DNA from: Cryobacterium aureum | Lineage (GTDB): Bacteria; Actinomycetota; Actinomycetes; Actinomycetales; Microbacteriaceae | Direction: 5' to 3' | Assembly (NCBI RefSeq): GCF_002954245.1 | Contig: NZ_PPTG01000046.1 | Span: forward strand, 62,001-126,000 | DNA length: 64,000 nucleotides | Shown: piece by piece, positions 37,431 through 57,216 of the stretch | Layout: each line of letters opens with the position of its first letter | How positions within the stretch are numbered: position 1 is the first letter of the stretch | Position numbers and translations under genes: made by a program | The notes under the pieces: model-generated | Database searches by the model: none | What the model saw: only the letters and a program-made list of their open reading frames with translations | What the model was told of the DNA's origin: nothing

Positions 37431-37540
37431 GCCACCAGCCTATAAGGAGTGAAGCGGATGCCGCCGCCGCGGTATCGAAAGCGGCTCGCGCCGTGTTGCG
37501 ATTGAATGGGTACAACAATCTCGAGCGCGGAAAGGTCACA

Positions 37541-38542: not shown

Positions 38543-39379
38543 ATGCCACACGATTCGCTGCCCGACGCGGCCACCGCCGAAGTGGGTGCCATGGAACTGT
38601 TCGGCCTCAAGGTGTTCACCCTCGGTGGTTTCGGGGAGATCGCTGCTGGCGATGACCTCGCTGCCCTGATCAATGAGGCCGCGCAGTCGCGCCTGGTCGA
38701 CGGCGACATCGTGGCGGTGACCAGCAAGATCGTCTCCAAGGCCGAGGGACGCGTCGTTCAGGCCGCCGACCGCGAACAGGCGATCACGGACGAGACCGTG
38801 CGCGTCGTGGCGTCGCGGGCGCACCCGGGCGGCGTCACCCGCATCGTCGAGAACCGGCAGGGCCTGGTCATGGCCGCGGCCGGCGTCGACACCAGCAATG
38901 CGCCCGAGGGTGTGGTGCTGCTGCTGCCGGTCGATCCGGATGGTTCGGCGCGCGCGATCTGCGCTGCCCTCCGGGAGCGCACCGGGTTGCGCCTCGGAGT
39001 GCTGATCACCGACACCGCCGGGCGCCCCTGGCGGGAAGGCCAGACCGATATCGCCATCGGCGCGGCCGGGCTCGCCGTGCTCGACGACCTGCGCGGCACA
39101 ACGGATGTCTCGGGTCGCCGCCTCGACGTCACCGCCGCGGCGGTCGCCGACGAGATCGCCGGCGCCGCTGATCTGGTCAAGGGCAAGACCAGCGGCAACC
39201 CGGTCGCCGTAATTCGGGGGCTCGGCCGACTGGTCGGCGAGCTGGACGCAGCCGGCGCTCGGGCGCTACAGCGACCGAGTGACACGGACATGTTTCGACT
39301 CGGCACGGCAGAGGCGCGCGCTGAAGGGTATGGCGAGGGGTTTGTTGCCGGGTTGGCTGCAGCGGCTGGGAAGAGCTAG
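38543..39379 (+). CDS. cofE: Coenzyme F420-0:L-glutamate ligase (CofE)
   Basis: A 278-residue gamma-glutamyl ligase that adds glutamates to F420-0. Family motifs are [35 protein letters not shown] and [18 protein letters not shown]. In mycobacteria this activity is the N-terminal half of the 448-residue FbiB, whose C-terminal FMN domain reduces dehydro-F420-0. Here the protein ends around the linker ([17 protein letters not shown]) and that domain is absent. The ATG follows the previous stop directly without a clear ribosome site; ATG 38591 is an alternative. The last four bases overlap the convergent SnoaL-like gene. Confidence 0.9.
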
Positions 39380-39847: not shown

Positions 39848-40516
39848 ATGGAAGAATACCCGGGTGCCGGCCATGAAGCGTCGCCTTCGGCCGCACCGTC
39901 CTGGGTGGTGGTGGTTCCGGTGAAGGGAAGCGCAGAGGCGAAGAGCCGACTCGGTGCTGGGCTCGAGCGGGCGGCGCTCGCCGATGCGTTCGCGCTCGAC
40001 ACGGTGGCGGCGCTGGTGGAAGCATCCGCTGTGGAGCAGGTATTCGTGGTGACCGCGAGTGCGCGTCTGGGCGCGCTGCTCGCTGGGCTCGGTGCGGTCA
40101 TCGTGTCGGAAACGCCGAGCGCTGAAACGGGGCATGCCCGGTTGAACGCGGCGATCCTGCGGGGCCTGGCTGCCACTCGGCTGGCGTATCCCCGAGCGAA
40201 TCTGGCCGTGATGACCGGGGATCTGCCCGCCCTGCGCCCGGCCGACCTGGAGAAGGCGTTTGCACTCGCCGCAGTGCACTCACGCTCGATGGTGGCCGAT
40301 GCCGACGGTGTGGGTACGACGACCCTGTTCGCCCGTGCAGGAGTCACGGTCACACCGCGGTTCGGTCTCGGCTCTCGCGCCGCGCACGAGGCCGACGGAC
40401 ACGCGGTGCTCGACCTGTCGCCGACGTCGTCGCTGCGGCGCGACGTCGACACCGCGGCCGACCTTGACGCGGCGCGCCTGATCGGGCTCGGGCCGCACAC
40501 GAGCGCGCTGCTCTAA
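39848..40516 (+). CDS. cofC: Nucleotidyltransferase CofC/FbiD of F420 biosynthesis
   Basis: A 222-residue nucleotidyltransferase. The GTP-binding start WVVVVPVKGSAEAKSRLG, the metal site MTGDLPALRPADL and ADGVGTTTLFARAG are typical of CofC/FbiD, which makes the lactyl- or phosphoenolpyruvyl-diphospho-guanosine donor for CofD. In actinobacteria phosphoenolpyruvate is the usual substrate, giving dehydro-F420-0. The ATG at 39848 gives a short leader before the first strand. The final four bases overlap the convergent cofD stop. Confidence 0.87.
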   Translation: MEEYPGAGHEASPSAAPSWVVVVPVKGSAEAKSRLGAGLERAALADAFALDTVAALVEASAVEQVFVVTASARLGALLAGLGAVIVSETPSAETGHARLNAAILRGLAATRLAYPRANLAVMTGDLPALRPADLEKAFALAAVHSRSMVADADGVGTTTLFARAGVTVTPRFGLGSRAAHEADGHAVLDLSPTSSLRRDVDTAADLDAARLIGLGPHTSALL

Positions 40517-41517
40517 GAGACGGCCGCGAGAGCCAATACGGCGGCAGCCATAGCGGTCGTCGCGGGCAGGTCGGTCATCCACAACGGCACAGCAGCAGAG
40601 CGGATGCCGGCGGCCGCGAGAGCTGGCAGCGCTGCGGCATCCGTTTCGTCGATGAGCCAGGCATCGAGGAGGCCGCCGCTGCCGTCGGCGCCCGCGGCGC
40701 GAGTGCCATAGTGCAGGCCGACGGCGAGCGCACTGGTCTCGACGCCGATGGCGTGCAGGCAGGCATCGGCCATGCCGCGCACCGCCGCGCCACCGATGAT
40801 CGGGGACACCCCGACGACTCGCGCACTGGTGGAACGCAGGGCTTCGCGCACGCCCGGTACGGCCAGGATCGTGCCGACCGACACGACCGGGTTCGACGGT
40901 GGCAGCACCACGAGGTCGGCCTCGGTGATGGCTGCCAGCACACCGGGAGCGGCGACCGCGTCGGCCAGCCCACGCTGCTCGAACCCGGTGATCGCAACTC
41001 GAGCGCGGTAACGCACCCACCATTCCTCAAAGTGAATATAGTCGCCCGCGGCGTGCTCGTCGATATTCTCGGCGAGGCATACGTGGGTTTCCACCGGCTG
41101 GTCGCTCATCGGCAGCAGGCGTACTCCTGGCTGCCAGCGGCGGCACAGAAATTCCGTGGCCTGTGAGAGCGTTGAGCCGTTTCGGAGCAGGTCGGTGCGC
41201 ACAATGTGCGTCGCCAGGTCGAGGTCGCCGAGGGTGAACCAGGACCAACCCCGACCGTAGGCGGCGATCTCAGCTGACGCGCGGCGGGATTCTTCGGGGC
41301 GCCCCCAGCCCTGCTCCTCATTGATGCCGCCGCCAAGCGTGTACATGACCGTGTCGAGATCGGGGCAGATGCGCAGCCCATCGAGCCACATGTCATCGCC
41401 GGTGTTCACGATCACCGTCACCGCTGCATCCGGGGCGGCCAGGGCGAGGTGCGCGAGCAGCCCGCGAGTGAAGCGGGCACCGCCGACACCGCCAGCCAGC
41501 ACCGTCACTCGCTTCAT
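40513..41517 (-). CDS. cofD: 2-phospho-L-lactate transferase CofD/FbiA
   Basis: A 334-residue enzyme that joins the CofC product to the deazaflavin Fo. Diagnostic segments are MKRVTVLAGGVGGARFTRGL, VIVNTGDDMWLDGL, CPDLDTVMYTLGG, GWGRPEESRRASAEIAAYG and PPSNPVVSVGTILAVPGV. The ATG at 41517 overlaps the upstream ATPase stop (ATGA), making cofD the last gene of the operon binding protein, permease, ATPase, cofD. Fo synthase (fbiC/cofGH) is not in the window. Confidence 0.93.
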   Translation of the reverse strand: MKRVTVLAGGVGGARFTRGLLAHLALAAPDAAVTVIVNTGDDMWLDGLRICPDLDTVMYTLGGGINEEQGWGRPEESRRASAEIAAYGRGWSWFTLGDLDLATHIVRTDLLRNGSTLSQATEFLCRRWQPGVRLLPMSDQPVETHVCLAENIDEHAAGDYIHFEEWWVRYRARVAITGFEQRGLADAVAAPGVLAAITEADLVVLPPSNPVVSVGTILAVPGVREALRSTSARVVGVSPIIGGAAVRGMADACLHAIGVETSALAVGLHYGTRAAGADGSGGLLDAWLIDETDAAALPALAAAGIRSAAVPLWMTDLPATTAMAAAVLALAAVS

Positions 41518-42293
41518 GCCGACACCGCCGCGGAATAGACGATGACCGGATGCCCGCCGCGCGGATGCTCCAGAATGAAGCAGTCCACGCCATAGACGGC
41601 GCCGATGATCTCGGGGGTGAGCACCTCGGCGGGCGTGCCGGAGGCCACGAGCAGACCGCCATCGAGCAACAGAATGTGGTCGCAGTACGCCGCCGCGAGA
41701 TTGAGGTCGTGCAGGGCCATGATGGCGCTCACCCCGAGCTCGCGCACCTGTCCAAGCAGCGAGAGCTGGGCGCTCACGTCGAGGTGGTTGGTCGGTTCGT
41801 CGAGCAGCAGCAGGCTCGGTTGCTGAGCCATAGCCCGGGCAATCTGCACGCGCTGCTGCTGTCCGCCGCTGAGCGTGTGCCACAAACGGTCGGCGAGCGA
41901 TAAGGCGCCGACCGCCTCGAGGGCGTCGCGAGCGACGGCGCGATCCTCGTCACCGCTGAACGAGCCCATGAGTTTGGTGCGGTGCGGAATGCGCCCGAGG
42001 AGTGCGACTTCGAGCACGGTCAGTTCAACGCTCGGCGCCGCATTCTGTTCGAGCAGGGCGATGCGCCGGGCAGCTTCGCGCCGGGACAGCGACCCGACCG
42101 AGACGCCGTCGAGGGAAACAGTGCCGGCATCCGCTTTGTCGATGCCGGCCACGAGGCGCAGCAGGGTGGACTTGCCGGCGCCGTTCGGCCCGAGCAGACC
42201 CGTGACGGTGCCGGTGGGCAGCGACGCCGAGACGCCCCGCAGAATCCTGGTGCCGTCGATCGAGAACGACAGCCGGTCGAGGTCTACGCCCAC
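41514..42293 (-). CDS. ABC transporter ATPase, proposed F420-0 transport family
   Basis: A 259-residue ATPase of the iron-siderophore/cobalamin (FecE/BtuD) class. It has Walker A GPNGAGKSTLLRLVAG, Q-loop LLEQNAAPS, signature LSGGQQQRVQIARAM, Walker B LLLLDEPTNHLD and the switch histidine in ALHDLNLA. It overlaps both neighbours. FecCD-type systems next to cofD in actinobacteria were named proposed F420-0 ABC transporters in TIGRFAMs (recalled); transport of F420-0 is not proven, and iron or cobalamin uptake is an alternative. Confidence 0.87.
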   Translation of the reverse strand: MGVDLDRLSFSIDGTRILRGVSASLPTGTVTGLLGPNGAGKSTLLRLVAGIDKADAGTVSLDGVSVGSLSRREAARRIALLEQNAAPSVELTVLEVALLGRIPHRTKLMGSFSGDEDRAVARDALEAVGALSLADRLWHTLSGGQQQRVQIARAMAQQPSLLLLDEPTNHLDVSAQLSLLGQVRELGVSAIMALHDLNLAAAYCDHILLLDGGLLVASGTPAEVLTPEIIGAVYGVDCFILEHPRGGHPVIVYSAAVSA

Positions 42294-43300: not shown

Positions 43301-43318
43301 TCGAGCCTCCGCCAGGCT

Positions 43319-43379: not shown

Positions 43380-43394
43380 ACCAGGGGGAGGGGG

Positions 43395-44390: not shown

Positions 44391-44511
44391 GCAGAACCTC
44401 ATAATTTTGGGCGCGGGAGACTGGATTGTCCAGAGACCTGCTGCCCAAATCGAGGCAAGCTCAACCAATAACATCTAATTGGTGGTCAGGAACACCGTAG
44501 CAGGGACCGGC

Positions 44512-44543
44512 CAGTGCAAACATTGAGTCAGTGCAAACATTGA
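44512..44543 (+). promoter_or_regulatory. 15-bp direct repeat upstream of fgd
   Basis: CAGTGCAAACATTGA occurs at 44512-44526 and again at 44529-44543, a 17-base period, about 20 bases before the fgd start. The second copy runs into TTGACT, a possible -35. Two same-face sites of this kind can bind a dimeric regulator, or may be a recent duplication. Confidence 0.5.
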
Positions 44544-44563
44544 CTACCACAAGAGGAGAGCGC

Positions 44564-45568
44564 ATGTTGAAGCTGGGACTAAAAGCGTCGGCGGAGCAGT
44601 TCGCACCACGAGAATTGGTGGAGCTCGGCGTCATGGCCGAGGAGCACGGGCTCGACAGCGTGACCGTGAGTGACCATTTTCAGCCGTGGCGGCACGAAGG
44701 CGGCCACGCACCCTACGCGATGGCCTGGATGGCCGCGGTCGGCGAGCGCACCAAACGGGTGCAGATCGGCACGTCGGTGATGACCCCCACCTTCCGCTAC
44801 AACCCCGCCGTGCTGGCCCAGGCCTTCGGAACCATGGGCTGCCTGTACCCCGGGCGCATCATGCTCGGTGTCGGAACGGGCGAGGCCCTCAATGAGATCG
44901 CCACGGGCTATCAGGGCGAGTGGCCCGAGTTCAAGGAACGATTTGCGCGCCTGCGTGAGGCCGTCAACCTCATGCGGCAACTGTGGACCGGCAAGCGCAT
45001 CGACTTCACGGGTGAGTACTATTCCACTGTCGGCGCCACCCTCTACGACATTCCGGATGCCCCGGTGCCGGTGTATATCGCGGCCGGTGGCCCCGTCGTG
45101 GCCCGCTATGCCGGCCGTGCCGGCGACGGTTTCATCTGCACCTCGGGTAAGGGCATGGAGCTTTACACCGAGAAACTGCTGCCGGCCGTCGCTGAGGGCC
45201 TCGAGAAGGTGGGGCGCCCGCAGGACGACATTGACCGCATGATCGAGATCAAGATCTCCTACGACACCGACCCGCAAGCCGCACTGGAGAATACCCGGTT
45301 CTGGGCCCCGCTGTCACTCACGCCCGAGCAGAAGCAATCCATTCACGACCCGCTCGAGATGGAGGCCGCCGCCGATGCGCTCCCGATCGAGCAGGTCGCC
45401 AAGCGCTGGATCGTCGCCTCCGACCCCGACGAGGCCGTGGCGCTGATCAAGCCCTACCTGGACGCGGGCCTCAACCACCTGGTCTTCCACGCCCCGGGCC
45501 ACGACCAGAAACGTTTTCTCGACCTGTTCGAGCGCGACCTGGCCCCGCGGCTGCGCCAGCTGGGCTGA
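44564..45568 (+). CDS. fgd: F420-dependent glucose-6-phosphate dehydrogenase
   Basis: A 334-residue LLM-family enzyme that oxidises glucose-6-phosphate and reduces F420. Similarity to mycobacterial Fgd1 is obvious along the whole length: [76 protein letters not shown] and [13 protein letters not shown]. Active-site His 38, Trp 42 and the GEALNE glutamate are present, as are the lysines and arginine lining the phosphate pocket. An AGAGGAGAG site precedes the ATG. It provides reduced F420 for the other LLM enzymes here. Confidence 0.95.
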
Positions 45569-45588: not shown

Positions 45589-46956
45589 CTACGACCAGCG
45601 CGCACCGACCGAGTGCACGGCCGAATCAAGCGGATGCGCCGCAGCGGCGAGGGCTTCGGCCACCGGACGGATGTCGTCGGGCAGGGCGCCGGCGGTCACC
45701 CGAATGAACGCGGGGCCACCCTCCACGGCCTGGAACGGCGAGCCGCCGGCCACGCGAATGCCGGACGCGGCGAGCCGCACCAGGGCATCACGCTCGTTCT
45801 GCACGGGCAGCCAGGTATTGATGCCGTCGGCCTGCACCACGACGAGCCCGAACTCGGCCAGGGCGTCGGCGAGGGCACGCTGGCGGGCGAAATAGATGCG
45901 GCGCGCCTCGCTGACCTGCGCCATGCTCTCGCCGTTGGTGAGCAGGTCGTGCAGAATCGTCTGCAGCATGCGGCTAGTCCAGCCGGGGCCGAGCATGCGC
46001 CGCGACACGATCGGGTCGATGAGTGCGGCCGGGCCGCCGAGCGCGGCCATGCGCAGGTCGGGGCCGTGCGACTTGGAGAAGCTGCGCACGTGCAGGGTGC
46101 GTTCGGGCAGCCAGAGTCCAAGACTCACGTCGGGGGCGATGCTGATCTCCGCAGAGTGGTCGTCTTCGATCACGATGGTGTCGGCGCTCGCCGCAGTGCT
46201 GTGCAATAGCCCGGCCAGCTCCTCTGCCCGGTGCGCGGTCATCGAGGCGCCGGTCGGGTTCTGCGCGCGCGGTTGCAGCAGTACGACGGCCGGGCCGAGC
46301 TTGAGGGCCGCGGCGAAGTCGGCCGGAATGATGCCGTGCTCGTCGACGGCCACCGGCAGGCGTTCCAGGCCGAGCTGGTCGAGCAGATCGAAGAACGGTG
46401 GAAACGACGGGTTCTCCACGATGACGCGGTCGCCGAACCGCGCGACCGCATCGAGGCTGCGCGAGATGGCGTCGAGGGCGCCGTCGACGATGGTGACGGT
46501 TTCGACCGGGTAGGGCCACGAAGCCCGCAGCACCTCGAGCAGCTCCGGAATGATCGGGAGGTCCTGATAGCTCGGCGTCACCGCGCGCTGCGCTACCCGG
46601 GAGAGCGCAGGTCCGAGCGCCGGCAACAACTTCGGGTCGGGAGTGCCGCGCGAGAGGTCGAGGCGGGCCGGACCGACCGCGCCGATCATGGACTGGCTGC
46701 GGGCGGGCAGCCACTTGGGCGCGGCATCCTGAACGAAGGTGCCGCCCCGACCACGCGACACGATCAGGCCGACCGCGGAGAGCGCCCGCCAGGCATGACT
46801 GACCGTGGCCGGGCTCACGCCGAGGTCACCGGCCAGCACCCGCACCGTCGGCAGACGGTCGCCTGGCACGAGGCGACCGCTCGCGATCAATCGGCCGATG
46901 GCCGCGGCAATCCCCGCCGGTGTGCGCTGCTCGATTTCAGCGATAAAGTTCTGCAT
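45589..46956 (-). CDS. MocR-type GntR/aminotransferase transcriptional regulator
   Basis: A 455-residue fusion. It has an N-terminal GntR winged helix (AAAIGRLIASGRLVPGDRLP, LGVSPATVSHAWRAL) and a class I aminotransferase-like domain (SYQDLPIIPELLEVLRAS, LQPRAQNPTGASMTAHR). The region VRSFSKSHGPDLRMA holds the PLP-binding lysine. MocR proteins use PLP to sense amino compounds. It diverges from the pyrimidine-degradation cluster, so it may respond to beta-alanine or a related amine and control that cluster; this is inferred from position. Confidence 0.87.
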   Translation of the reverse strand: MQNFIAEIEQRTPAGIAAAIGRLIASGRLVPGDRLPTVRVLAGDLGVSPATVSHAWRALSAVGLIVSRGRGGTFVQDAAPKWLPARSQSMIGAVGPARLDLSRGTPDPKLLPALGPALSRVAQRAVTPSYQDLPIIPELLEVLRASWPYPVETVTIVDGALDAISRSLDAVARFGDRVIVENPSFPPFFDLLDQLGLERLPVAVDEHGIIPADFAAALKLGPAVVLLQPRAQNPTGASMTAHRAEELAGLLHSTAASADTIVIEDDHSAEISIAPDVSLGLWLPERTLHVRSFSKSHGPDLRMAALGGPAALIDPIVSRRMLGPGWTSRMLQTILHDLLTNGESMAQVSEARRIYFARQRALADALAEFGLVVVQADGINTWLPVQNERDALVRLAASGIRVAGGSPFQAVEGGPAFIRVTAGALPDDIRPVAEALAAAAHPLDSAVHSVGARWS

Positions 46957-47109: not shown

Positions 47110-47964
47110 ATGAACAGTCAGATCGTTCGAACCGCCATCACCCAGGCCACCTGGACCGGCGACGAAGAATCCATGATTCAAAAACACGAAGGCTTCGTGC
47201 GCACCGCGGCTGCCCAGGGCGTGCAGGTGATCTGCTTTCAGGAGCTCTTCCACGGCCCCTATTTCGGCATCGTGCAAGATGCCAAGTACTACGACTACGC
47301 GCAGGCCGTGCCCGGCCCCATCGTCGAGCGCTTTCAAAAGCTCGCGAGCGAGTACAAGATGGTCATCGTCGTGCCCATGTACGAAGAAGAACAGCCCGGC
47401 GTGCTCTACAACACCGCTGCGGTCATCGACGCCGACGGAACTTACCTCGGCAAGTACCGCAAACACCACATCCCCCACCTGCCGCAGTTCTGGGAGAAGT
47501 TCTACTTTCGTCCCGGAAACGCCGACTACCCGGTCTTCGACACCGCGTACGGCAAGATCGGCGTGTACATCTGCTATGACCGCCACTTCCCGGAGGGCTG
47601 GCGTGCCCTCGGCCTGAACGGCGCCGAGATCGTGTTCAACCCCTCGGCCACCAAACCCGGCCTGTCGAACCGACTGTGGGAGCTCGAGCAGCCGGCTGCC
47701 GCTGTCGCCAACCAGTACTACGTCGGCGCGAACAACCGTATCGGCAACGAAGAGGCGGAGTTCGGCGATGAGGCCGTCACCTTCTACGGCAGCTCGTACT
47801 TCGTCGACCCCAAGGGCAACTACGTGGGCGAGCGAGCCTCGACCGACACCGAGGAGATTCTCGTGCGCGACCTCGACCTCGGCGTGATCCGCGAGGTGCG
47901 CAACTCCTGGCAGTTCTACCGTGACCGTCGCCCCGACTCCTACGAGCCCCTCGTCGCCCCTTAA
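47110..47964 (+). CDS. Beta-ureidopropionase-like carbon-nitrogen hydrolase
   Basis: A 284-residue nitrilase-superfamily amidase. The catalytic glutamate is in CFQELFHGPYFG, the lysine in GKYRKHHIPH and the cysteine in GVYICYDRHFPEGWR. These motifs match N-carbamoyl-beta-alanine amidohydrolases, which release beta-alanine, CO2 and ammonia. The GGAAGG site is ideal. It is first in the one-strand cluster with dihydropyrimidinase, whose product it would consume. N-carbamoyl-D-amino acid hydrolysis is the alternative. Confidence 0.87.
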   Translation: MNSQIVRTAITQATWTGDEESMIQKHEGFVRTAAAQGVQVICFQELFHGPYFGIVQDAKYYDYAQAVPGPIVERFQKLASEYKMVIVVPMYEEEQPGVLYNTAAVIDADGTYLGKYRKHHIPHLPQFWEKFYFRPGNADYPVFDTAYGKIGVYICYDRHFPEGWRALGLNGAEIVFNPSATKPGLSNRLWELEQPAAAVANQYYVGANNRIGNEEAEFGDEAVTFYGSSYFVDPKGNYVGERASTDTEEILVRDLDLGVIREVRNSWQFYRDRRPDSYEPLVAP

Positions 47965-47975
47965 AGCGCATAGAA

Positions 47976-48010
47976 CGGATGCTGTCGACCGACCCGGCCG
48001 ACAGCATCCG
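47976..48010 (+). terminator. Hairpin between the ureidopropionase and dihydropyrimidinase genes
   Basis: A 12-base perfect stem, CGGATGCTGTCG (47976-47987) and CGACAGCATCCG (47999-48010), with an 11-base loop and no T run. It lies inside an apparent operon and could reduce downstream expression or mark an RNA processing point. Both arms contain the RCGGATGC octamer frequent in this window. Confidence 0.5.
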
Positions 48011-48042
48011 CTACCCCTGACACTTTCAGCGAAGAGGATGCC

Positions 48043-49476
48043 ATGAAGACTTTGATCAAGAACGGCACCGTGGTCAACGCCACGGGCCGAGGACTCGCCG
48101 ATGTGCTCATCGACGGCGAGAAAATTGCCGCGGTGCTCGCACCCGGCTCGACCCTGCTCGGCTTCGACGTGGCGGGCAACGTTGACCGCGTCATCGACGC
48201 CGGGGGCAAGTACGTCATTCCGGGCGGCATCGACGCCCACACCCATCTGGAGATGCCGTTCGGCGGCACCCAGGCCAGCGACACCTTCGAAACCGGTACC
48301 CGCGCTGCCGCCTGGGGCGGCACCACGAGCATCGTCGACTTCGTCGTGCAGTACGCCGGCGAAGACGTGCTGGAGCGTTATGCCGCCTGGCAGCAGAAGG
48401 CCGCCGGCCAGTGCGCCATCGACTACGGCTTTCATCAGATCCTCTCCGACGTGCAGGACAGCTCGCTGACCGCGATGGACAAACTCGTCGACGAGGGCGT
48501 CTCGAGCTTCAAACTGTTCATGGCCTACAAGGGCGTGTTCCTCAGCGACGACGGCCAAATCGTCAAGGCCATGCAGCGCGCCGCCACCAACGGCAGCATG
48601 ATCATGATGCACGCCGAGAACGGCAGCGTCATCGACCTGCTCGTGCAGCAGGCGGTTGCCGCCGGCAACACCGGCCCGCTCTATCACGGCCTGACCCGAC
48701 CCTGGCAGGCCGAAGAAGAGGCCACCCACCGGGCCATCATGCTTGCCAACCTCACCGGCGCTCCTCTATATATAGTGCACGTGTCGGCGAAGCAGGCCGT
48801 GGACCAGATCGCGCAGGCCAGAGACAATGGCCAGAATGTGTTCGGCGAGACCTGTCCGCAGTACCTCTACCTCTCGCTCGAGGACAACCTCGGTGCCGAG
48901 AGCGACGAGTGGGGCCGGTTCGAGGGCGCCAAATGGGTCTGCTCCACGCCGCTACGGGCTAAGGCCGAGGGACACCAGCACCACATGTGGCAGAGCCTTC
49001 GCACAAACGACATCCAGATGGTCTCCACCGACCACTGCCCGTTCTGCATGAAAGGCCAGAAGGACTTAGGGCTGACCGATTTTTCCAAGATTCCCAACGG
49101 CATCGGCTCGGTCGAACACCGCATGGACCTCTTGTACCAGGGCGTCGTCGACGGCAAGATCTCGCTCGAACGCTGGGTCGAGGTGTGCTCAACGACCCCG
49201 GCGCGCATGTTCGGCATGTATGGCCAGAAGGGCGTGATCGCGCCCGGCGCCGACGGCGATGTGGTCATCTACGACCCGAACGGGCACACGTCTATTGGGG
49301 TGGGAAAGTCCCACCACATGAACATGGACTACTCGGCCTGGGAAGGCTATGAGATCGACGGCCACGTCGACACCGTCATCTCCCGCGGCAAGGTCGTCGT
49401 CGACGATCACGCCTACCTCGGCACCAAGGGTGACGGCCGTTTCATCAAGCGCGGCCTGAGCCAGTACCTCATCTAA
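48043..49476 (+). CDS. hydA: Dihydropyrimidinase / hydantoinase
   Basis: A 477-residue cyclic amidohydrolase that opens dihydrouracil to N-carbamoyl-beta-alanine. It has the zinc-ligand motif GGIDAHTHLEMPFGG, the carboxylated lysine in SSFKLFMAYKG, histidines in MMHAENGSV and YIVHVSAK, and the aspartate in STDHCPFCMKGQKDLG. Length and motifs fit dihydropyrimidinase rather than allantoinase. It is followed nine bases later by an LLM oxidoreductase gene with which it is co-transcribed. Confidence 0.93.
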   Translation: MKTLIKNGTVVNATGRGLADVLIDGEKIAAVLAPGSTLLGFDVAGNVDRVIDAGGKYVIPGGIDAHTHLEMPFGGTQASDTFETGTRAAAWGGTTSIVDFVVQYAGEDVLERYAAWQQKAAGQCAIDYGFHQILSDVQDSSLTAMDKLVDEGVSSFKLFMAYKGVFLSDDGQIVKAMQRAATNGSMIMMHAENGSVIDLLVQQAVAAGNTGPLYHGLTRPWQAEEEATHRAIMLANLTGAPLYIVHVSAKQAVDQIAQARDNGQNVFGETCPQYLYLSLEDNLGAESDEWGRFEGAKWVCSTPLRAKAEGHQHHMWQSLRTNDIQMVSTDHCPFCMKGQKDLGLTDFSKIPNGIGSVEHRMDLLYQGVVDGKISLERWVEVCSTTPARMFGMYGQKGVIAPGADGDVVIYDPNGHTSIGVGKSHHMNMDYSAWEGYEIDGHVDTVISRGKVVVDDHAYLGTKGDGRFIKRGLSQYLI

Positions 49477-49485
49477 GGGGACGAC

Positions 49486-50502
49486 ATGGATTTCGGCGCA
49501 GTACTTCAGACCAACCCGCCGTCGGCGCGCACCGTGCAACTGGCCAAATTGGCCGAGGCACACGGGTTCAGCCACGTCTGGACCTTCGACTCGCACCTGC
49601 TCTGGCAGGAACCCTACGTGATCTACAGCCGCATTCTGGCCGAGACCAGCAGAATCATCGTCGGCCCCATGGTAACCAACCCGGCCACCCGGGACTGGAC
49701 CGTGACGGCATCCACTTATGCGACCCTCAACGAAATGTACGGCAACCGCACCATCTGTGGCATCGGGCGCGGCGACTCCGCGGTGCGCACCACCAACGGT
49801 GCCCCGACCACACTGAAGACCCTGCGCGAGTCGATCCACGTCATTCGCGAGCTCGCCAACTCTCGCCCGGTGGAATACAACGGCGCCACGGTGCAGTTTC
49901 CGTGGAGTCGCGGCTCCAGCCTGGAGATGTGGGTCGCGGCCTACGGCCCGCTCGCGCTCAAGCTCGCCGGTGAGGTGGGCGACGGCTTCATCCTGCAGAT
50001 GGCCGACCTCGACGTGGCCAAGTGGATGATCGAGAGCGTGCGTACCGCAGCCTCCAACGCCGGCCGCGACCCGATGGAGATCAAATTCTGCGTCGCCGCC
50101 CCCGCCTATGTCGGTTCGGACTGGGAGCACATGCGCAACCAGTGCCGCTGGTTCGGCGGCATGGTCGGCAACCACGTGGCCGACATCGTGGCCAAGTACG
50201 GCGTCGATTCCGCGGTTCCGAAGGCACTCACCGACTACATCAAGGACCGTGAGGGCTACGACTACAACCAACACGGTAAGGCGGGCAATGAGCACGCCGC
50301 GTTCGTGCCAGACGAGATCGTCGACCGGTTCTGCCTGCTCGGCACGGCGAAAGACCACATCGAGAAGCTCGAGGCGCTCAAAGACCTCGGCGTCGACCAG
50401 TTCGCCGGCTACCTGCAGCATGACAACAAGGAAGAAACGATGCGCGTCTACGGCGACACCGTGATTCCAGCGCTGACCGACGCCATTACGGCTAAGAAAT
50501 AA
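49486..50502 (+). CDS. LLM-class F420-type oxidoreductase of the pyrimidine cluster (TIGR03842-like)
   Basis: A 338-residue luciferase-like TIM barrel related to methylene-H4MPT reductase (Mer). It shows HGFSHVWTFDSHLLWQEPYV, then TICGIGRGDSAVRTTNGAPT, WVAAYGPLALKLAGEVGDGF and EIVDRFCLLGTAKDHIEKLE. It probably uses F420 (or a flavin) for a hydride transfer. TIGR03842, a family recalled as occurring near nitrilase and dihydropyrimidinase genes, looks similar. It sits nine bases after hydA and four before the ABC permease, in a pathway that otherwise lacks a dihydropyrimidine dehydrogenase, so it is a candidate for the uracil/dihydrouracil redox step. Confidence 0.87.
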   Translation: MDFGAVLQTNPPSARTVQLAKLAEAHGFSHVWTFDSHLLWQEPYVIYSRILAETSRIIVGPMVTNPATRDWTVTASTYATLNEMYGNRTICGIGRGDSAVRTTNGAPTTLKTLRESIHVIRELANSRPVEYNGATVQFPWSRGSSLEMWVAAYGPLALKLAGEVGDGFILQMADLDVAKWMIESVRTAASNAGRDPMEIKFCVAAPAYVGSDWEHMRNQCRWFGGMVGNHVADIVAKYGVDSAVPKALTDYIKDREGYDYNQHGKAGNEHAAFVPDEIVDRFCLLGTAKDHIEKLEALKDLGVDQFAGYLQHDNKEETMRVYGDTVIPALTDAITAKK

Positions 50503-50506
50503 GCGG

Positions 50507-51463
50507 ATGCCGACGACCAGCGAGCAGGCCGCGCCACTTACGCGCGGCGCGCTCGGAGTGGCTAAAGCGCGCCAGCCCGGGCGTTCCGGCGTGCACCCGC
50601 GCTTGCGTGGTGGCCTTTTCGGTCTGGCCGGCCTCGCGCTGCTCGCCCTCATCTGGGAGCTCTACAAAACGCTCGGACCGGTCGACGGTGTCGTCATTGG
50701 CACGCTCACCGTGCTTCCGCGAACGAGCGATCTCGCCATGCCGCACCTCTGGGTCATGTTCGAGCGACTGTTCGAGCCGGTGACCGGCGCGGCATCCGCT
50801 CTGCCGCTGTGGCAGGCGGTGCTGGCCGGTTCGCTGTTCACCCTGGGAATCGCCGCAGTCGGCTGGCTGGTTGGCGTGACCGTTGGGCTCGCGCTTGCCC
50901 TGCTCATGCAGCGCTTTCGCCTGGCCGAGTCAATGATTCTGCCCTGGATCATTCTGAGCCAGACCGTGCCGCTGATCGCGATCGCCCCGCTGGTTCGACG
51001 CTGGGGCGCGCAGATCCAGTTCGGCGAATTCACCTGGGAAAGCTGGATGTCGGTGGCCATGATCGCCTCCTACCTCGCGTTCTTCCCGGTGTCGATCGGC
51101 GCCCTGCGGGGCCTCGCCTCGCCCGACGCCAACCACGTCGACCTCATGCACTGCTACGCAATCGGCTGGTGGAAGACGCTCTGGCGGCTGCGCCTACCGG
51201 CCAGCGTCGGCTACCTGCTGCCAGCCCTGCGCCTGGCTGCGGTCAGCGCGGTCGTCGGCAGCGTCGTGGCCGAAGTGTCGATCGGGCTGCGCGGCGGCAT
51301 CGGTCGGCTCATCGTGGAATACGCCGGCGCGGCCGGCAACGACCCGGGCAAGCCCTGGGCGCCCATCTTCGGTTCGATCCTGGTCGGCCTCGTCGCCGCC
51401 GGTTTTGTGGGCCTGATCGGCCTGTTCCTTCGTCGTTTTCGCAGGGGAGAGGTGTCAGCATGA
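50507..51463 (+). CDS. ABC transporter permease (NMT1/SsuC-type system)
   Basis: A 318-residue inner-membrane permease with about six helices in the binding-protein-dependent transport fold. The EAA-like loop reads HCYAIGWWKTLWRLRLPASVGYLLPALRLAA-type sequence (about residues 207-240), which contacts the ATPase. It starts four bases after the LLM gene and overlaps the ATPase start by four bases. With the permease at 52299-53069 it would form a heterodimeric channel. Confidence 0.87.
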   Translation: MPTTSEQAAPLTRGALGVAKARQPGRSGVHPRLRGGLFGLAGLALLALIWELYKTLGPVDGVVIGTLTVLPRTSDLAMPHLWVMFERLFEPVTGAASALPLWQAVLAGSLFTLGIAAVGWLVGVTVGLALALLMQRFRLAESMILPWIILSQTVPLIAIAPLVRRWGAQIQFGEFTWESWMSVAMIASYLAFFPVSIGALRGLASPDANHVDLMHCYAIGWWKTLWRLRLPASVGYLLPALRLAAVSAVVGSVVAEVSIGLRGGIGRLIVEYAGAAGNDPGKPWAPIFGSILVGLVAAGFVGLIGLFLRRFRRGEVSA

Positions 51464-52302
51464 CCAACACAACGAGTGTGCCTGCTGTTGATGTACACAG
51501 TGTCAGTCGCATCTTCGCCGCCCGCAAGGGCCCCGGCGTCACCGCCCTCGACGATGTGAGCCTCACGGTCGCGCCCGGCGAGTTCGTCAGCCTGATTGGG
51601 CCAAGCGGATGCGGCAAGAGCACGCTTTTGAGACTGGTCGCCGACCTCGACGTGCCCACCAGCGGCAGCATCGAGGTGTTTGGCAAGCCCGCGCGGCGGG
51701 CACGCATCGACCAGTCCTACGGCATCGCTTTTCAGCAGGCCGGCCTGCTGCCCTGGCGCACGGTTGCCGGCAACATCGAGCTGCCGCTCGAACTGCACGG
51801 AGTGGGTAAGGCGGCCAGGCGGGGGCGCGCCGCCGAACTCATCGCGCTGGTCGGGCTCTCGGACTTCGCCAGCCACTACCCGGACCAGCTCTCCGGCGGT
51901 ATGCAGCAGCGTGTCGCGATCGCCCGTTCGCTCGCTGAAAGCCCGAGCCTGCTGCTCATGGACGAACCCTTCGGCGCCCTCGACGAGATGACCCGCGAGC
52001 GCATGCAGAACGAACTCGTGCGTATCTGCGCCGAAACCCAGGCGGCCGTGGTTTTCGTCACGCACTCCATTCCCGAAGCGGTGTTTCTCTCCAACCGGGT
52101 GGTGGTCATGTCGCCGCGGCCTGGGCGCATCCGTTCTATTGTGAGCGTGGGACTTGGCGATATGAGCGGCCGGGGCGAAGACCTGCGCGAAGATGAGGGC
52201 TTCTTTCGCTCCCTCAGCGAGGTGCGCGACCTGCTGCACGGCGATGAAGCGGCCGGGGCTGGCCACAACCAGGCCGGCGCTCGCGGAGTCGAGACGCGAT
52301 GA
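51460..52302 (+). CDS. ABC transporter ATPase (NitT/TauT class)
   Basis: A 280-residue ATPase: Walker A GPSGCGKSTLLRLVAD, Q-loop AFQQAGLLPWRTV, signature LSGGMQQRVAIARSL, Walker B LLLMDEPFGALDEMT and the switch histidine in FVTHSIPEAVFLS, the pattern of nitrate/taurine/pyrimidine-precursor importers. The ATG overlaps the upstream stop (ATGA) and its end overlaps the next permease, so translation is coupled through the transporter genes. Confidence 0.92.
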   Translation: MTNTTSVPAVDVHSVSRIFAARKGPGVTALDDVSLTVAPGEFVSLIGPSGCGKSTLLRLVADLDVPTSGSIEVFGKPARRARIDQSYGIAFQQAGLLPWRTVAGNIELPLELHGVGKAARRGRAAELIALVGLSDFASHYPDQLSGGMQQRVAIARSLAESPSLLLMDEPFGALDEMTRERMQNELVRICAETQAAVVFVTHSIPEAVFLSNRVVVMSPRPGRIRSIVSVGLGDMSGRGEDLREDEGFFRSLSEVRDLLHGDEAAGAGHNQAGARGVETR

Positions 52303-53069
52303 GAACCGCCCAGCCGGGGCTCGTTCAGACCGTCCTCGCCCCGATCGTGTTCGGGGTTGCCGTCATTTTGCTCTGGCAGGGCCTGGTCACCGGGCTGGCG
52401 ATCAAGGCGTTCATTCTTCCGGCCCCGTTTGCGATCGGCGCCGAATTCGCCGGCAATCTGAACAATGTCGCCGGGGGAATGGTGGTCACCGGCCGTAACT
52501 CGCTGATCGGCCTCGTCATCGGTGCCGTGCTCGGAATCGCGCTGGCGATCGTGGCGGCGCTCGCGCGCCTGCTCGATGAGATGGCGGCGCCCATCGTCGC
52601 CGCCCTCTCGGTGGTGCCGATCGTGGCGCTCGCGCCGGTGCTCTACACGATGTTCGGCGCCGGCGCCGAGACCGCCCGGCAGCTGGTCGCTGCGCTTGCC
52701 GTGTTTGTGCCGGTCTACTTCAACACCCTCAAGGGCCTGCGCCAAGTGCGTCCGGTGCACCGCGACCTCATGCGTGCCTACGCCGTCACCGGTTGGCAGG
52801 CCACCCGGGCGGTCACCCTGCCCACCGCGTTGCCCTACGTCTTCACCGGCCTGCGCGTGGCATCCTCGCTCGCCGTAATCAGCGCTCTGATCGCCGAATA
52901 TTTCGGCGGACCGGTCGGCGGCCTCGGCAAATCGATCACGTCAGCCGCGTCGAGCAGCAACTACGGCCTGGCTTGGGCCTACGTGCTCGGCTCGATCATT
53001 CTCGGACTTGCTTTTTACTGCGCAGCTCTCATCGTTGAGAAGCTCGTCACCCGCCGTTCCGGCGGCTAG
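52299..53069 (+). CDS. ABC transporter permease (second subunit)
   Basis: A 256-residue permease with about six helices. The coupling loop is near AYAVTGWQATRAVTLPTALP followed by YVFTGLRVASSLAVISALI, typical of NitT/TauT-type systems. Its start overlaps the ATPase stop by four bases. It pairs with the other permease (50507-51463). Confidence 0.88.
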   Translation: MRTAQPGLVQTVLAPIVFGVAVILLWQGLVTGLAIKAFILPAPFAIGAEFAGNLNNVAGGMVVTGRNSLIGLVIGAVLGIALAIVAALARLLDEMAAPIVAALSVVPIVALAPVLYTMFGAGAETARQLVAALAVFVPVYFNTLKGLRQVRPVHRDLMRAYAVTGWQATRAVTLPTALPYVFTGLRVASSLAVISALIAEYFGGPVGGLGKSITSAASSSNYGLAWAYVLGSIILGLAFYCAALIVEKLVTRRSGG

Positions 53070-53113
53070 ACCACCACCCCACCACACACAGCACCAGCAA
53101 CCAAGGAGGCACC

Positions 53114-54250
53114 ATGAAACACCGCATTACATGGCTTGGCGCAATCACCGCCGTCGGCGCGCTCGTTCTCTCCGGCTGCAGCACGGCGAGCACTGCTCCC
53201 ACAACGGATGCCGCTGGCGATCTCACCCCGATCACCCTGCAGCTGCAATGGTTCGCGCAGGCCCAGTTCGCTGGCTACTACGCCGCTCTCGACCAGGGTT
53301 ACTACGAAGACGAAGGCCTCGACGTGACCATCGACGAGGGTGGCTCCGACATCGTGCCGCAGGATGTACTCGCCGCCGGCGACGCCGACTACGCCATCTC
53401 CTGGGTGCCCAAGGTGCTCGGCTCGATCGAGCAGGGTGCCAACATCACCGACGTCGCCCAGATCTTCGAACGCAGTGCCACCACCCAGATCTCGCTCAAG
53501 GACAAGGACATCACGACCGCGGCCGACCTAGCGGGCAAGAACGTCGGCAGCTGGGGCTACGGCAACGAGTGGGAGCTGTTTGCCGGCATGCAGAAGGCCG
53601 ACGTTGAGCTCGGCGACATCAACCTCATTCAGCAGGCCTTCGACATGACCGGATTCCTCGCCGGCGATATCGATGCTGCCCAGGCCATGACGTACAACGA
53701 GTACGCCCAGGTTCTGGAAACCATCAACCCCGATACCGGCAAGCTGTTTCAGCCCGATGAACTCAACGTTATCGACTGGAACGATGAGGGCACCGCGATG
53801 CTGCAGGACTCCATCTGGGCCAACGCCGACAAGCTCGAAAGCGACTCGGACTACGCCGACAACACGGTGAAGTTCATCAAGGCGTCGATCAAGGGCTGGA
53901 TCTACGCGGCCAACAATCCGTCCGAAGCGGCCGGCATCGTCACGGCCGCCGGTTCGACCCTCGGTGAGAGCCACCAGCTGTGGATGACCAACGAGGTCAG
54001 CAAACTCATCTTCCCGTCGACCAACGGCGTCGGAATGATCGACGAAGCGGCCTGGGCCAACACGGTCGATATCGCCATGAACACCAAGAATGAGACCGGC
54101 GCGACCATCATCACCACCGAACCACCGGCGACGGCGTACTCGAATGAATACGTGACGAAGGCGCTCGACGAGCTGAAGGCCGAGGGCGTCGACGTTATGG
54201 GCACCGACTGGAAGCCCACCGAGGTCACCCTCAACGAGGGCGGCAACTAG
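53114..54250 (+). CDS. NMT1/THI5-like substrate-binding lipoprotein
   Basis: A 378-residue binding protein with a lipoprotein signal (ALVLSGCSTAS). The start of the mature domain, ITLQLQWFAQAQFAGYYAA, with LDQGYYEDEGLDVTI and ADYAISWVPKVL, is the NMT1/THI5-like family, which includes binding proteins for pyrimidine compounds. A strong AAGGAGG precedes the ATG. The gene ends the ABC unit and is followed by a strong hairpin. Given the neighbours, a pyrimidine, dihydropyrimidine or ureido compound is the likely ligand. Confidence 0.9.
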   Translation: MKHRITWLGAITAVGALVLSGCSTASTAPTTDAAGDLTPITLQLQWFAQAQFAGYYAALDQGYYEDEGLDVTIDEGGSDIVPQDVLAAGDADYAISWVPKVLGSIEQGANITDVAQIFERSATTQISLKDKDITTAADLAGKNVGSWGYGNEWELFAGMQKADVELGDINLIQQAFDMTGFLAGDIDAAQAMTYNEYAQVLETINPDTGKLFQPDELNVIDWNDEGTAMLQDSIWANADKLESDSDYADNTVKFIKASIKGWIYAANNPSEAAGIVTAAGSTLGESHQLWMTNEVSKLIFPSTNGVGMIDEAAWANTVDIAMNTKNETGATIITTEPPATAYSNEYVTKALDELKAEGVDVMGTDWKPTEVTLNEGGN

Positions 54251-54271
54251 CTGCTGCACCACTGGATGACC

Positions 54272-54302
54272 GGCCGGGCGGCTCCAGGCGGGCCGCCCGG
54301 CC
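54272..54302 (+). terminator. GC-rich hairpin after the binding-protein gene
   Basis: Perfect 11-base stem GGCCGGGCGGC (54272-54282) and GCCGCCCGGCC (54292-54302) with a 9-base loop, followed by CACAATCTTT. It is likely a terminator or partial terminator separating the importer from the aminotransferase/dehydrogenase pair. Confidence 0.65.
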
Positions 54303-54366
54303 CACAATCTTTCCGATTTCCGAATCCCTGTTCCACCCACCACCACAGAGAAAGCCAGCGATATAC

Positions 54367-55689
54367 GTGACTGACACCAGCACACAAACTCTCAACGCGC
54401 ACACCAGCGAACTCGACCGGGCGCACGTGTTCCATTCCTGGTCGGCACAGGCGAAGCTTGCGCCGCTCGTCATCGCCGGCGGGTTGGGCTGCCGCGTCTG
54501 GGATCATGACGGACGCTCGTATCTCGACTTCTCGAGTCAGTTGGTGAACGTGAACATCGGCCATCAGCATCCGGCCGTGGTGCAAGCCATCACCGAGCAG
54601 GCCGCTCTGCTGACGACCATCGCGCCGTCCACCGCCAACCTGGCCCGCGGCGAGGCGGCCAAGCGCATCACCGACCGTGCCCCGGTCGGTTTCAACAAGG
54701 TCTTCTTCACCAACGGTGGAGCGGATGCGAACGAAAACGCCATGCGCATGGCCCGCGTACACACCGGCCGCGACAAGGTGCTCTCCCTCTATAAGTCGTA
54801 CCACGGCAACACCGGTGCGGCCATCGTGGCCACCGGCGACTGGCGCCGCATTCCCAACGAGTATTCGCGCGGCCACGTGCACTTCTTCGGCCCGTTCCTC
54901 TACCGCAGCGAATTCTGGGCGACCAGCGAGGCCGAGGAATGCGCTCGCGCGCTGCACCACCTCGAACGCGTCATCCAGGGCGAGGGCGTGGCCTCGGTTG
55001 CGGCCATTCTGCTCGAATCCATTCCGGGGACCGCCGGAATCATGATGCCGCCGGCCGGCTACCTGCCCGGAGTGCGCGCACTGTGCGACAAGTACGGCAT
55101 CAAGCTCATCCTCGACGAGGTCATGTGCGGCTTCGGCCGCACCGGCCACTGGTTCGCCTTTCAGGCGTACGACGTCGTGCCCGATCTGATCACCTTCGCC
55201 AAGGGTGTCAACTCCGGTTACGTGCCCACCGGCGGCGTGATCATCTCCGATGCCATCGCCGCCACCTTCGACGAGACGGTCTTTCCCGGCGGACTCACTT
55301 ACAGCGGGCATCCGCTCGCGATGGCGTCGATCGTCGGCGCACTCGACGCCATGGAGGCCGAGGGCATCGTCGAGAACGCCGCTCGCATCGGACGCGACGT
55401 GCTCGAGCCGGGCCTGGAAGCCCTACAGGCCAAGCACCCGATCATCGGCGAAGTGCGCGGTGTCGGCGTGTTCTGGGCTCTCGAGCTCGTCGCCGACCCG
55501 TCGACCCGCGAACCGGTGAGCGCCGCGGTCATGGCCCGGGTGAAGGCCGAACTGCTCGGCCGGGGCCTGCTGCCGTTCCTGATGGAGAACCGTATCCACG
55601 TCGTGCCGCCCTGCGTCGTCACCGACGCTGAGGTGGCCGAAGCGCTCGCCATCTACGACGAGGTGCTCAGCCTCGACCTGCTCGCTTAA
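54367..55689 (+). CDS. Omega-aminotransferase, probable beta-alanine:2-oxoacid transaminase
   Basis: A 440-residue class III PLP aminotransferase. Motifs are FTNGGADANENAMRMAR (phosphate/cofactor binding), SYHGNTGAAI, LILDEVMCGFGRTG (PLP aspartate) and LITFAKGVNSGYVPTGG with the Schiff-base lysine. Such enzymes act on beta-alanine, taurine or related omega-amines. Between beta-ureidopropionase and malonate-semialdehyde dehydrogenase genes, beta-alanine to malonate semialdehyde is the natural reaction. It uses a GTG start and is followed 27 bases later by the dehydrogenase gene. Confidence 0.9.
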   Translation: MTDTSTQTLNAHTSELDRAHVFHSWSAQAKLAPLVIAGGLGCRVWDHDGRSYLDFSSQLVNVNIGHQHPAVVQAITEQAALLTTIAPSTANLARGEAAKRITDRAPVGFNKVFFTNGGADANENAMRMARVHTGRDKVLSLYKSYHGNTGAAIVATGDWRRIPNEYSRGHVHFFGPFLYRSEFWATSEAEECARALHHLERVIQGEGVASVAAILLESIPGTAGIMMPPAGYLPGVRALCDKYGIKLILDEVMCGFGRTGHWFAFQAYDVVPDLITFAKGVNSGYVPTGGVIISDAIAATFDETVFPGGLTYSGHPLAMASIVGALDAMEAEGIVENAARIGRDVLEPGLEALQAKHPIIGEVRGVGVFWALELVADPSTREPVSAAVMARVKAELLGRGLLPFLMENRIHVVPPCVVTDAEVAEALAIYDEVLSLDLLA

Positions 55690-55716
55690 TCCCTCCAACC
55701 ACTAAGGACCTTCACA

Positions 55717-57216
55717 ATGACTGACATCCCCACTATTCAGCACTACATCGACGGCAAAGCTGCCGCTGGCACCTCGACCCGCACCGCGCCCGTTTACAAC
55801 CCGGCCACCGGCAAAGTCGCCAAAAACGTGCTGCTGGCGAGCACGGCCGACCTCGACGCAGCCGTCGCGGTCGCCCAGGCCGCCTACCCGGCCTGGCGCG
55901 ACACGAGCCAGGCCCGCCGCCAGACCATCATGTACAACTTTCGCGAGCTGCTGAACGCACGGAAAGGCGACCTGGCCGATATTCTCACCGCCGAACACGG
56001 CAAGGTCACCTCCGACGCGCTCGGCGAAATCATTCGCGGCCTCGAGGTCGTCGAATTCGCCCTCGGCATGCCGCACCTGACCAAGGGCGAGTACTCCGAA
56101 AACGTCTCGACCGGCGTTGATGTCTACTCGATTCGCCAGTCGCTCGGCGTCGTGGGCATCATCAGCCCGTTCAACTTTCCGGCCATGGTGCCACTCTGGT
56201 ACTTCCCGATTGCGATCGCGGCCGGCAACACCGTCGTGCTCAAGCCGAGTGAGAAGGACCCTTCGGCGTCGAACTGGCTGGCCGAGCTGTTCACGGAGGC
56301 CGGCCTGCCCAATGGTGTGCTCAACGTCGTGCACGGCGACAAAGAGGCCGTCGATGCCCTGCTGGTGAACCCCGACGTGCAGGCGATCTCCTTCGTCGGT
56401 TCCACCCCGATCGCCCGCTACATCTACGAGACCGCTGCCAAGAACGGCAAGCGTGTGCAGTCCCTCGGCGGTGCGAAAAACCACATGCTGGTTCTGCCAG
56501 ACGCCGATCTCGAGTTGACAGCGGATGCCGCAGTGAATGCCGGTTTCGGATCCGCCGGTGAGCGCTGCATGGCCATCAGCGTCATCGTGGCCGTCGAGCC
56601 GGTCGCAGACGAACTCATCGCCAAGATTGCCGAACGCGTCAAGGGCCTCACCGTCGGCGACGGCACGCGCGGCTGCGACATGGGCCCGCTGATCACCCAG
56701 GTGCACCGCGACAAGGTGGCCGGCTACATCGACATCGCTCAGGCAGACGGTGCCGACGTCGTCATCGACGGCCGCGACATCACGGTGGATGGTGACGCCG
56801 ACGGCTTCTGGCTCGGCCCGACCCTGTTCGACAAGGTCAGCGTCGACTCGGCCGTGTACCTCGACGAAATCTTCGGCCCGGTGTTGTCGATCGTGCGCGT
56901 GGCCAGCTACCAAGCGGGCCTCGACCTCATTAATGCGAGCCAGTACGGCAACGGCACCGCGATCTTCACCAACGACGGTGGGGCCGCTCGCCGGTTCCAG
57001 AACGAGGTTCAGGTGGGCATGGTCGGCATCAACGTGCCGATTCCGGTGCCGGTCGCATACCACTCCTTCGGCGGCTGGAAGAACTCGCTGTTCGGCGACG
57101 CCAAGGCCTACGGCCCCGCCGGAGTGAACTTCTACACCCGAGAAAAAGCCGTCACCAGCCGCTGGCCGGATCCCAGCCACGGAGGCATCAACCTGGGCTT
57201 TCCCCAGAACAACTAG
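55717..57216 (+). CDS. mmsA: CoA-acylating methylmalonate/malonate-semialdehyde dehydrogenase
   Basis: A 499-residue aldehyde dehydrogenase of the MmsA type. It has GIISPFNFPAMVPLWYFPIA, KPSEKDPS, FVGSTPIARYIYETAAKNGK, ALGGAKNH-like LGGAKNHMLVLPDADLE and the catalytic cysteine in GSAGERCMAISVIVAV. MmsA enzymes convert malonate semialdehyde plus CoA and NAD to acetyl-CoA and CO2, the last step of beta-alanine breakdown. Length is typical. It ends just before a 19-base perfect inverted repeat shared by sequence with copy 1 at 43319-43379. Confidence 0.93.
   Translation: MTDIPTIQHYIDGKAAAGTSTRTAPVYNPATGKVAKNVLLASTADLDAAVAVAQAAYPAWRDTSQARRQTIMYNFRELLNARKGDLADILTAEHGKVTSDALGEIIRGLEVVEFALGMPHLTKGEYSENVSTGVDVYSIRQSLGVVGIISPFNFPAMVPLWYFPIAIAAGNTVVLKPSEKDPSASNWLAELFTEAGLPNGVLNVVHGDKEAVDALLVNPDVQAISFVGSTPIARYIYETAAKNGKRVQSLGGAKNHMLVLPDADLELTADAAVNAGFGSAGERCMAISVIVAVEPVADELIAKIAERVKGLTVGDGTRGCDMGPLITQVHRDKVAGYIDIAQADGADVVIDGRDITVDGDADGFWLGPTLFDKVSVDSAVYLDEIFGPVLSIVRVASYQAGLDLINASQYGNGTAIFTNDGGAARRFQNEVQVGMVGINVPIPVPVAYHSFGGWKNSLFGDAKAYGPAGVNFYTREKAVTSRWPDPSHGGINLGFPQNN

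Follow-up and report, generated by a model that had tools for sequence, protein, structure and literature searches.

Reductive pyrimidine degradation is opened by enzymes of the PreTA/DPYD/PydA kind, which draw on NAD(P)H or ferredoxin (the latter in PydAc of Clostridium chromiireducens), and PreA, a relative of dihydroorotate dehydrogenase, is described as working through Fe-S and flavin sites (excerpts of PMC7332683). PreTA genes are clustered with those of a dihydropyrimidinase (HydA), a carbamoylase, an importer of the NCS1 or NMT1 type and a RutR-like regulator. Here we analyse 64,000 nucleotides of Cryobacterium aureum (contig NZ_PPTG01000046.1, positions 62,001 to 126,000; the whole stretch is hereafter the window), which encode a luciferase-like (LLM) oxidoreductase of PF00296 whose clusters hold the same kinds of partner. 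Based on gene context and family comparison, we propose that this LLM is very probably an F420H2-dependent dihydropyrimidine dehydrogenase. It would catalyze the same step as PreTA/DPYD, the first of the reductive pathway, while being non-homologous to it and using the rare cofactor F420 instead.

Other described enzymes resemble the LLM in part. Mer, the F420-dependent methylene-tetrahydromethanopterin reductase, has VTNP and G-x-G-D stretches in common with it, but carries a glutamate, Glu6 (E6Q mutant, PDB 8qq8), where the LLM family has none. The nearest published idea is an F420-dependent reductase predicted in a uric-acid pathway: the putative "yanthine reductase" of Chloroflexota uricolytic clusters is predicted to be an F420 LLM that reduces an N-heterocycle ahead of a hydantoinase, replacing a PydA-like/YgfK enzyme (excerpts of PMC12507026). 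It differs in its setting, beside SsnA, YgeY and YgeX, and is its authors' prediction. NpsU (SSGG-03002), a putative F420/flavin mononucleotide (FMN) oxidoreductase, is genetically required for reduction of the uracil C5-C6 bond in mureidomycins (excerpts of PMC10714638). That enzyme acts in antibiotic tailoring, its authors obtained no in vitro activity, and its likeness to the LLM concerns the reaction.

In the open-licence literature, covered mostly as titles and the beginnings of abstracts, no link was found between pyrimidine breakdown and an F420-dependent LLM or one of TIGR03842, the family of the window's LLM; work published in subscription journals alone would have escaped this search. 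TIGR03842 was not mentioned there, nor was F420 together with dihydropyrimidinase, uracil and luciferase-like. The Streptomyces coelicolor genes, sought by their presumed locus numbers, appeared in no title or abstract among the matches.

The cluster comprises nine genes at positions 47110-57216 (Table 1). The initial annotation had described it as encoding an importer, a dihydropyrimidinase, a carbamoylase (beta-ureidopropionase), an aminotransferase and a (methyl)malonate-semialdehyde dehydrogenase (MMSDH), and both the open reading frames (ORFs) and family searches agree with this assignment. The ORF coordinates also bear out the spacing of the LLM gene, with gaps of 9 bases to hydA upstream and 4 bases to the first permease gene downstream. 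With its importer, HydA, carbamoylase, aminotransferase and MMSDH, the cluster encodes a complete route from dihydropyrimidine to acyl-CoA. The carbamoylase scores only 260 bits against aguB, its best equivalog model, where 410 are required, and is 55-60% identical to carbamoylases within PreT-PreA clusters (loci L200, L215 and L216 in our numbering). Its probable role as a beta-ureidopropionase follows from this identity and from the cluster context, and appears better fixed by the former than by the enzyme's name. The genome-wide search for PreA that had been proposed as a check was negative: in the C. aureum assembly (4.31 Mb, 52 contigs, 98.48% complete) the best match scored 32.9 bits against a cut-off of 335 (NF006183).

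The association of the LLM with dihydropyrimidinase extends through the actinomycetes. We searched 296 genomes of the window's class, using the curated cut-off for the LLM, E 1e-110 for HydA and E 1e-60 for PreA. The LLM was found in 82 genomes and HydA in 84, with both present in 79 (Fisher p about 1e-61, species not being independent), while PreA was found in 0/296. The 82 genomes are set apart by a clear score gap, the best TIGR03842 match outside the over-cut-off frames being 147.6 bits. Gene order was compared in 80 of the 82 loci, leaving out the window's own genome and G284. HydA lies upstream of the LLM on the same strand in 77, at most 500 bases away in 55, and the order carbamoylase-HydA-LLM on one strand is kept in 72. 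For the other partners, the sequence available falls short of 9 kb on one side or both in 50 of these 80 loci: an NMT1-type binding protein occurs in 27, a MocR-like regulator in 21 and the full window-like set in 16, while the window's aminotransferase has a close homologue (>400 bits) in 22 and its MMSDH in 31.

The relation between the LLM and PreA could be followed in the Halomonadaceae, the family of Halomonas organivorans, which was picked because a scan had shown LLM genomes there. Among 151 genomes, 6 contain the LLM, 46 PreA and 69 HydA. In the 51 genomes whose best HydA scores at least 580 bits, a threshold placed afterwards in an observed break of the scores (585 to 566 bits), PreA occurs in 46 and the LLM in 5, with no genome having both and none having neither. 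Moreover, cofH is present in 6 of the 151 genomes, and these are exactly the six with the LLM (0/145 others). Given this split of HydA genomes and the distribution of cofH, the LLM is associated within this family with F420 synthesis and with the lack of PreA, although the six LLM genomes may represent two or three events only. The suggestion that homologues in organisms lacking F420 might use FMN found no support in the Halomonadaceae. In a sample of Rhodobacterales the LLM occurred in 2 of 196 genomes, too few for a test of mutual exclusion.

The two first enzymes are also found beside the same kinds of partner. Halomonadaceae LLM loci (L197-L199) contain HydA, an NCS1-type transporter, an M20 carbamoylase, a RutR-like regulator, cof genes and the LLM; PreA loci of the same family (L200-L205) contain an NCS1-type transporter, a CN-hydrolase carbamoylase, HydA, PreT, PreA and a RutR-like regulator, the NCS1 and RutR model scores lying below their cut-offs. 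Four further LLM loci of this family (L135, L140, L141 and L196) have the same kinds of gene in a different order. Leisingera G298 (L206/L207) and Limimaricola G337 (L208/L209) carry both kinds of cluster in one genome, and each cluster, cof-LLM or PreT-PreA, has its own HydA, M20 and RutR-like gene. An importer of the window's type occurs in PreT-PreA clusters on plasmids of Roseinatronobacter, Qingshengfaniella and Deinococcus (ATPase 50-54% and binding protein 32-38% identity). In one of seven PreA plasmid loci compared, that of Sinorhizobium (L212), no HydA or importer match was found beside PreA. In a HydA tree of 64 proteins, thinned from the 126 extracted and built by a quick method, the LLM/PreA label changes at least five times, three of these changes being forced by well-supported branches. 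Judged from this tree, related dihydropyrimidinases have repeatedly served both first enzymes, which implies that the LLM and PreA act on the same kind of substrate.

To look beyond these groups, we scanned named genomes and retained the best 80 of 590 or more relatives, ranked by likeness to a Paracoccus LLM located in an F420 operon. All 12 Chloroflexota loci among them have HydA (partial ones included) or a carbamoylase in the flank of the LLM. In the two that were inspected (L170 and L174) an aminotransferase, MMSDH and importer parts lie beside it; L174 has both a carbamoylase and HydA, and no carbamoylase was found in L170. The typical layout in Pseudomonadota is cofG-cofH-cofD-cofC-cofE-npdG-LLM, with the LLM last, and is annotated so on plasmids of Paracoccus alcaliphilus and Leisingera caerulea; it recurs in many further loci. 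Among 62 loci assigned to Pseudomonadota by title, the flank contains one or more of cofH, cofE and npdG in 51 and two or more in 42; the set includes L186, a metagenome-assembled genome (MAG) of Myxococcota that has no cof gene there. This linkage to cof genes is the main evidence for F420 as the cofactor. Genome-wide searches for HydA and PreA covered 50 named LLM genomes, standing for 50 of the 80 loci, and HydA exceeded its cut-off in 48. In four Devosia loci (L159, L160, L162 and L181) a gene for a CofE-like protein (41-43% identity to Paracoccus CofE) is located at 3.6-3.9 kb from the LLM, and the flank shows neither npdG nor any further cof gene. A divergent family member in the haloarchaeon Saliphagus infecundisoli (L187) lies near an aminotransferase gene and an MMSDH-like gene whose product is 42% identical to the window's.

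TIGR03842 (F420_CPS_4043) is classed as a hypothetical equivalog, with no reaction given in its name, and PF00296 is the only Pfam match of the window's LLM. The closest PDB sequence is Mer (8qpm, 119 bits), and the score against the Mer equivalog TIGR03555 is 135.7 bits, below its cut-off of 348.7. An AlphaFold2 model (pLDDT 90.2, pTM 0.90) again gave Mer as the best fold in Foldseek (E 4.9e-23, TM 0.77). The best 15 PDB rows are all F420 enzymes (Mer, FGD2, Adf and FGD1), with luciferase at rank 16 and FMN monooxygenases from that rank on. For the window's protein itself, the case for binding F420 is one of genetic linkage (the cof operons, and cofH in 6/6 against 0/145 Halomonadaceae genomes). 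We aligned 148 family members (the window's, 78 from actinomycetes and 69 from named genomes). At the position of Mer Glu6, 147 of them carry V, T, C or A (V in the window's protein) and one has a gap. Fifteen residues are invariant in 148/148 and absent from Mer 8qpm (R95, S98, R101, W140, Y153, Q171, W222, F223, H230, Y251, R255, Y260, H263, Y309 and Y322); these are candidate residues of a pyrimidine pocket.

From the other genes of the cluster we infer the substrate, uracil or thymine, and the direction in vivo; the cofactor and the hydride chemistry given here are likewise proposals. The importer would bring in uracil or thymine. F420H2 would be supplied from glucose 6-phosphate by Fgd in the window organism and from NADPH by NpdG in Proteobacteria. 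F420 is a low-potential obligate hydride donor, suited to such a C=C reduction: the LLM would transfer hydride from F420H2 to C6 of the C5=C6 bond, with protonation at C5, to give the dihydropyrimidine, and would thus stand in for the unrelated Fe-S flavoprotein PreTA/DPYD. HydA would then open the ring, and the carbamoylase would release beta-alanine or beta-aminoisobutyrate. Onward conversion to acetyl-CoA or propionyl-CoA would fall to the aminotransferase and the semialdehyde dehydrogenase.

Several observations weigh against this proposal. The actinomycete sample includes five genomes with HydA and no LLM (G009, where HydA is near a contig edge, G016, G031, G068 and G159) and three with the LLM and no HydA (G029, G229 and G074, where a contig edge cuts HydA off), and 2 of the 80 loci have neither HydA nor a carbamoylase in the flank. 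In the Halomonadaceae, 17 HydA genomes lack both PreA and the LLM. All of them are below 580 bits, as is the LLM genome G562 (HydA 566 bits), and that limit was chosen with the scores in view. Among the named loci the frequency of cof genes may be inflated by the ranking, which used an LLM from an F420 operon; HydA or a carbamoylase flanks the LLM in only 31 of the 62 Pseudomonadota loci; and eight of the 80 (L125, L154, L163, L165, L182, L183, L184 and L186) lack HydA, a carbamoylase and cof genes alike in the flank, so that the LLM may have a different role there or its partners may lie elsewhere in the genome. PreA exceeded its cut-off in 7 of the 50 named LLM genomes (three Leisingera, Aquamicrobium, Devosia psychrophila, Limimaricola and a Geminicoccaceae MAG). 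According to excerpts of a review (PMC8498797), Paracoccus denitrificans contains only trace F420. Finally, Mer is nested within the family in the LLM tree, its branch being long and weakly supported (80/83), and the tree does not establish a single functional origin; we discarded this position as unreliable because of the long branches.

The co-occurrence of PreA and the LLM in those seven genomes would be explained if the two enzymes had different substrates, for instance if the LLM used F420 to reduce a related ring compound, be it a modified pyrimidine or one derived from a purine, such as yanthine, rather than uracil or thymine. The F420-dependent PF00296 reductase predicted beside SsnA in Chloroflexota (excerpts of PMC12507026) points the same way. 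We consider this unlikely, as the carbamoylase, aminotransferase and MMSDH of the window fit the products of uracil and thymine, and HydA, NCS1-type and RutR-like partners (the latter two by scores below cut-off) are common to LLM and PreTA clusters. A purine-type function was rejected for Chloroflexota, where the aminotransferase and MMSDH are found in both inspected loci and a carbamoylase with HydA in L174, and where no SsnA-like name appeared among the families of 10 proteins from the two loci, the existence of an NCBIfam SsnA model not having been checked.

PF00296 includes RutA and other FMN monooxygenases, and such enzymes appear among the fold matches of the window's LLM from rank 16 on; the "F420-dependent" in its NCBI name is itself a prediction. 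The LLM might thus be an FMN-dependent monooxygenase, opening the ring as RutA does or oxidizing dihydropyrimidines, rather than an F420 reductase. This is very improbable in view of the 15 F420 enzymes that head the fold matches, the many proteobacterial cof-npdG operons in which the LLM comes last and the tracking of cofH with the LLM (6/6 against 0/145). RutA-like oxidative opening was rejected: the RutA model TIGR03612 is not among the 24 NCBIfam families matched at E 0.001, and HydA would have no task left if a monooxygenase opened the ring. Adf and Fgd, which have the same fold, oxidize C-OH groups, and an LLM resembling such F420 alcohol dehydrogenases could instead act downstream on three-carbon products (malonate semialdehyde or 3-hydroxypropionate). 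We give this the least credence, because the LLM accompanies carbamoylase-HydA in 72 of 80 actinomycete loci as against 22 for the aminotransferase and 31 for MMSDH, alternates with PreT-PreA and not with a downstream gene, and shares the window with an MMSDH. Taken together, gene order, F420 operons, the PreA/LLM split, the tracking of cofH and the exchange of enzymes near related HydA proteins lend comparative support to the F420-dependent pyrimidine reduction first suggested in the initial annotation.

The window was also said to make F420 and to reduce it with Fgd. This is borne out in part, by cofD, cofE, a putative F420-0 transporter and Fgd (Table 1); queries with Paracoccus CofG, CofH, CofC and NpdG gave no tblastn match in the window at E 1e-6, the rest of the genome not having been searched for FbiC. 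The true start of CofD is probably near 41517, as the model match begins at residue 126 of the longest ORF. A second LLM protein is encoded at 37493-38542, with cofE directly after it; it belongs to the Fgd-like subfamily TIGR03557 (280 bits, cut-off 210) and matches TIGR03885 below cut-off. A speculative role for the regulator divergent from the pyrimidine cluster, in contrast to the RutR-like regulators found in Proteobacteria, would be to sense beta-alanine through pyridoxal phosphate.

Table 1. Genes of the pyrimidine cluster and F420 genes in the window (positions counted from its first nucleotide; L, locus number)
Feature	Position	Strand	Family matches and homologues
CN-hydrolase, probable beta-ureidopropionase (N-carbamoyl-beta-alanine amidohydrolase)	47110..47964	+	PF00795
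Dihydropyrimidinase HydA	48043..49476	+	TIGR02033, 549 bits (cut-off 393)
LLM oxidoreductase, proposed F420H2-dependent dihydropyrimidine dehydrogenase	49486..50502	+	TIGR03842, 589 bits (cut-off 295.45)
ABC importer permease 1	50507..51463	+	BPD_transp_1; homologues in PreTA clusters L207, L214, L217, L218
ABC importer ATPase	51460..52302	+	ABC_tran; 49-54% identity to ATPases of PreTA clusters L207, L214, L217, L218
ABC importer permease 2	52299..53069	+	BPD_transp_1; homologues in PreTA clusters L207, L214, L217, L218
NMT1/THI5-type substrate-binding protein, probable pyrimidine binder	53114..54250	+	PF09084; 32-39% identity to binding proteins of PreTA clusters L207, L214, L217, L218
Class-III omega-aminotransferase, probable beta-alanine or beta-aminoisobutyrate aminotransferase (substrate inferred)	54367..55689	+	PRK06062, 738 bits (cut-off 472); PF00202
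CoA-acylating (methyl)malonate-semialdehyde dehydrogenase MMSDH	55717..57216	+	TIGR01722, 678 bits (cut-off 448.5)
MocR/GabR-like regulator, divergent, candidate cluster regulator	45589..46956	-	GntR and Aminotran_1_2; homologue >200 bits in 21/80 LLM loci
F420-dependent glucose-6-phosphate dehydrogenase Fgd, likely F420H2 source	44531..45568	+	TIGR03554, 674 bits (cut-off 420)
ABC transporter between cofD and fgd, putative F420-0 transporter	41514-44474	-	TIGR03868 and TIGR03869 over cut-off, TIGR03873 below
CofD, phospholactate transferase	40513..41883 (longest ORF)	-	TIGR01819, 338 bits (cut-off 257); tblastn match 40570-41517
CofE, F420-0:glutamate ligase	38543..39379	+	TIGR01916, 237 bits (cut-off 181)

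Looking forward, the proposal points to a single enzyme, substrate class and phenotype, and is directly testable in culturable species. It would fill an annotation hole in actinomycetes, where dihydropyrimidinase is common (84/296) and PreA was not found (0/296), and would add a non-homologous replacement of a textbook enzyme. It is also likely, though we hold this with less assurance than the function of the LLM itself, that scattered Proteobacteria owe their horizontal acquisition of the whole F420 pathway to pyrimidine catabolism, with F420 serving mainly the LLM there; in Streptomyces and relatives, the same reaction would give F420 a role in primary metabolism. If true, this would assign F420 a definite function in Proteobacteria of marine and soil habitats.

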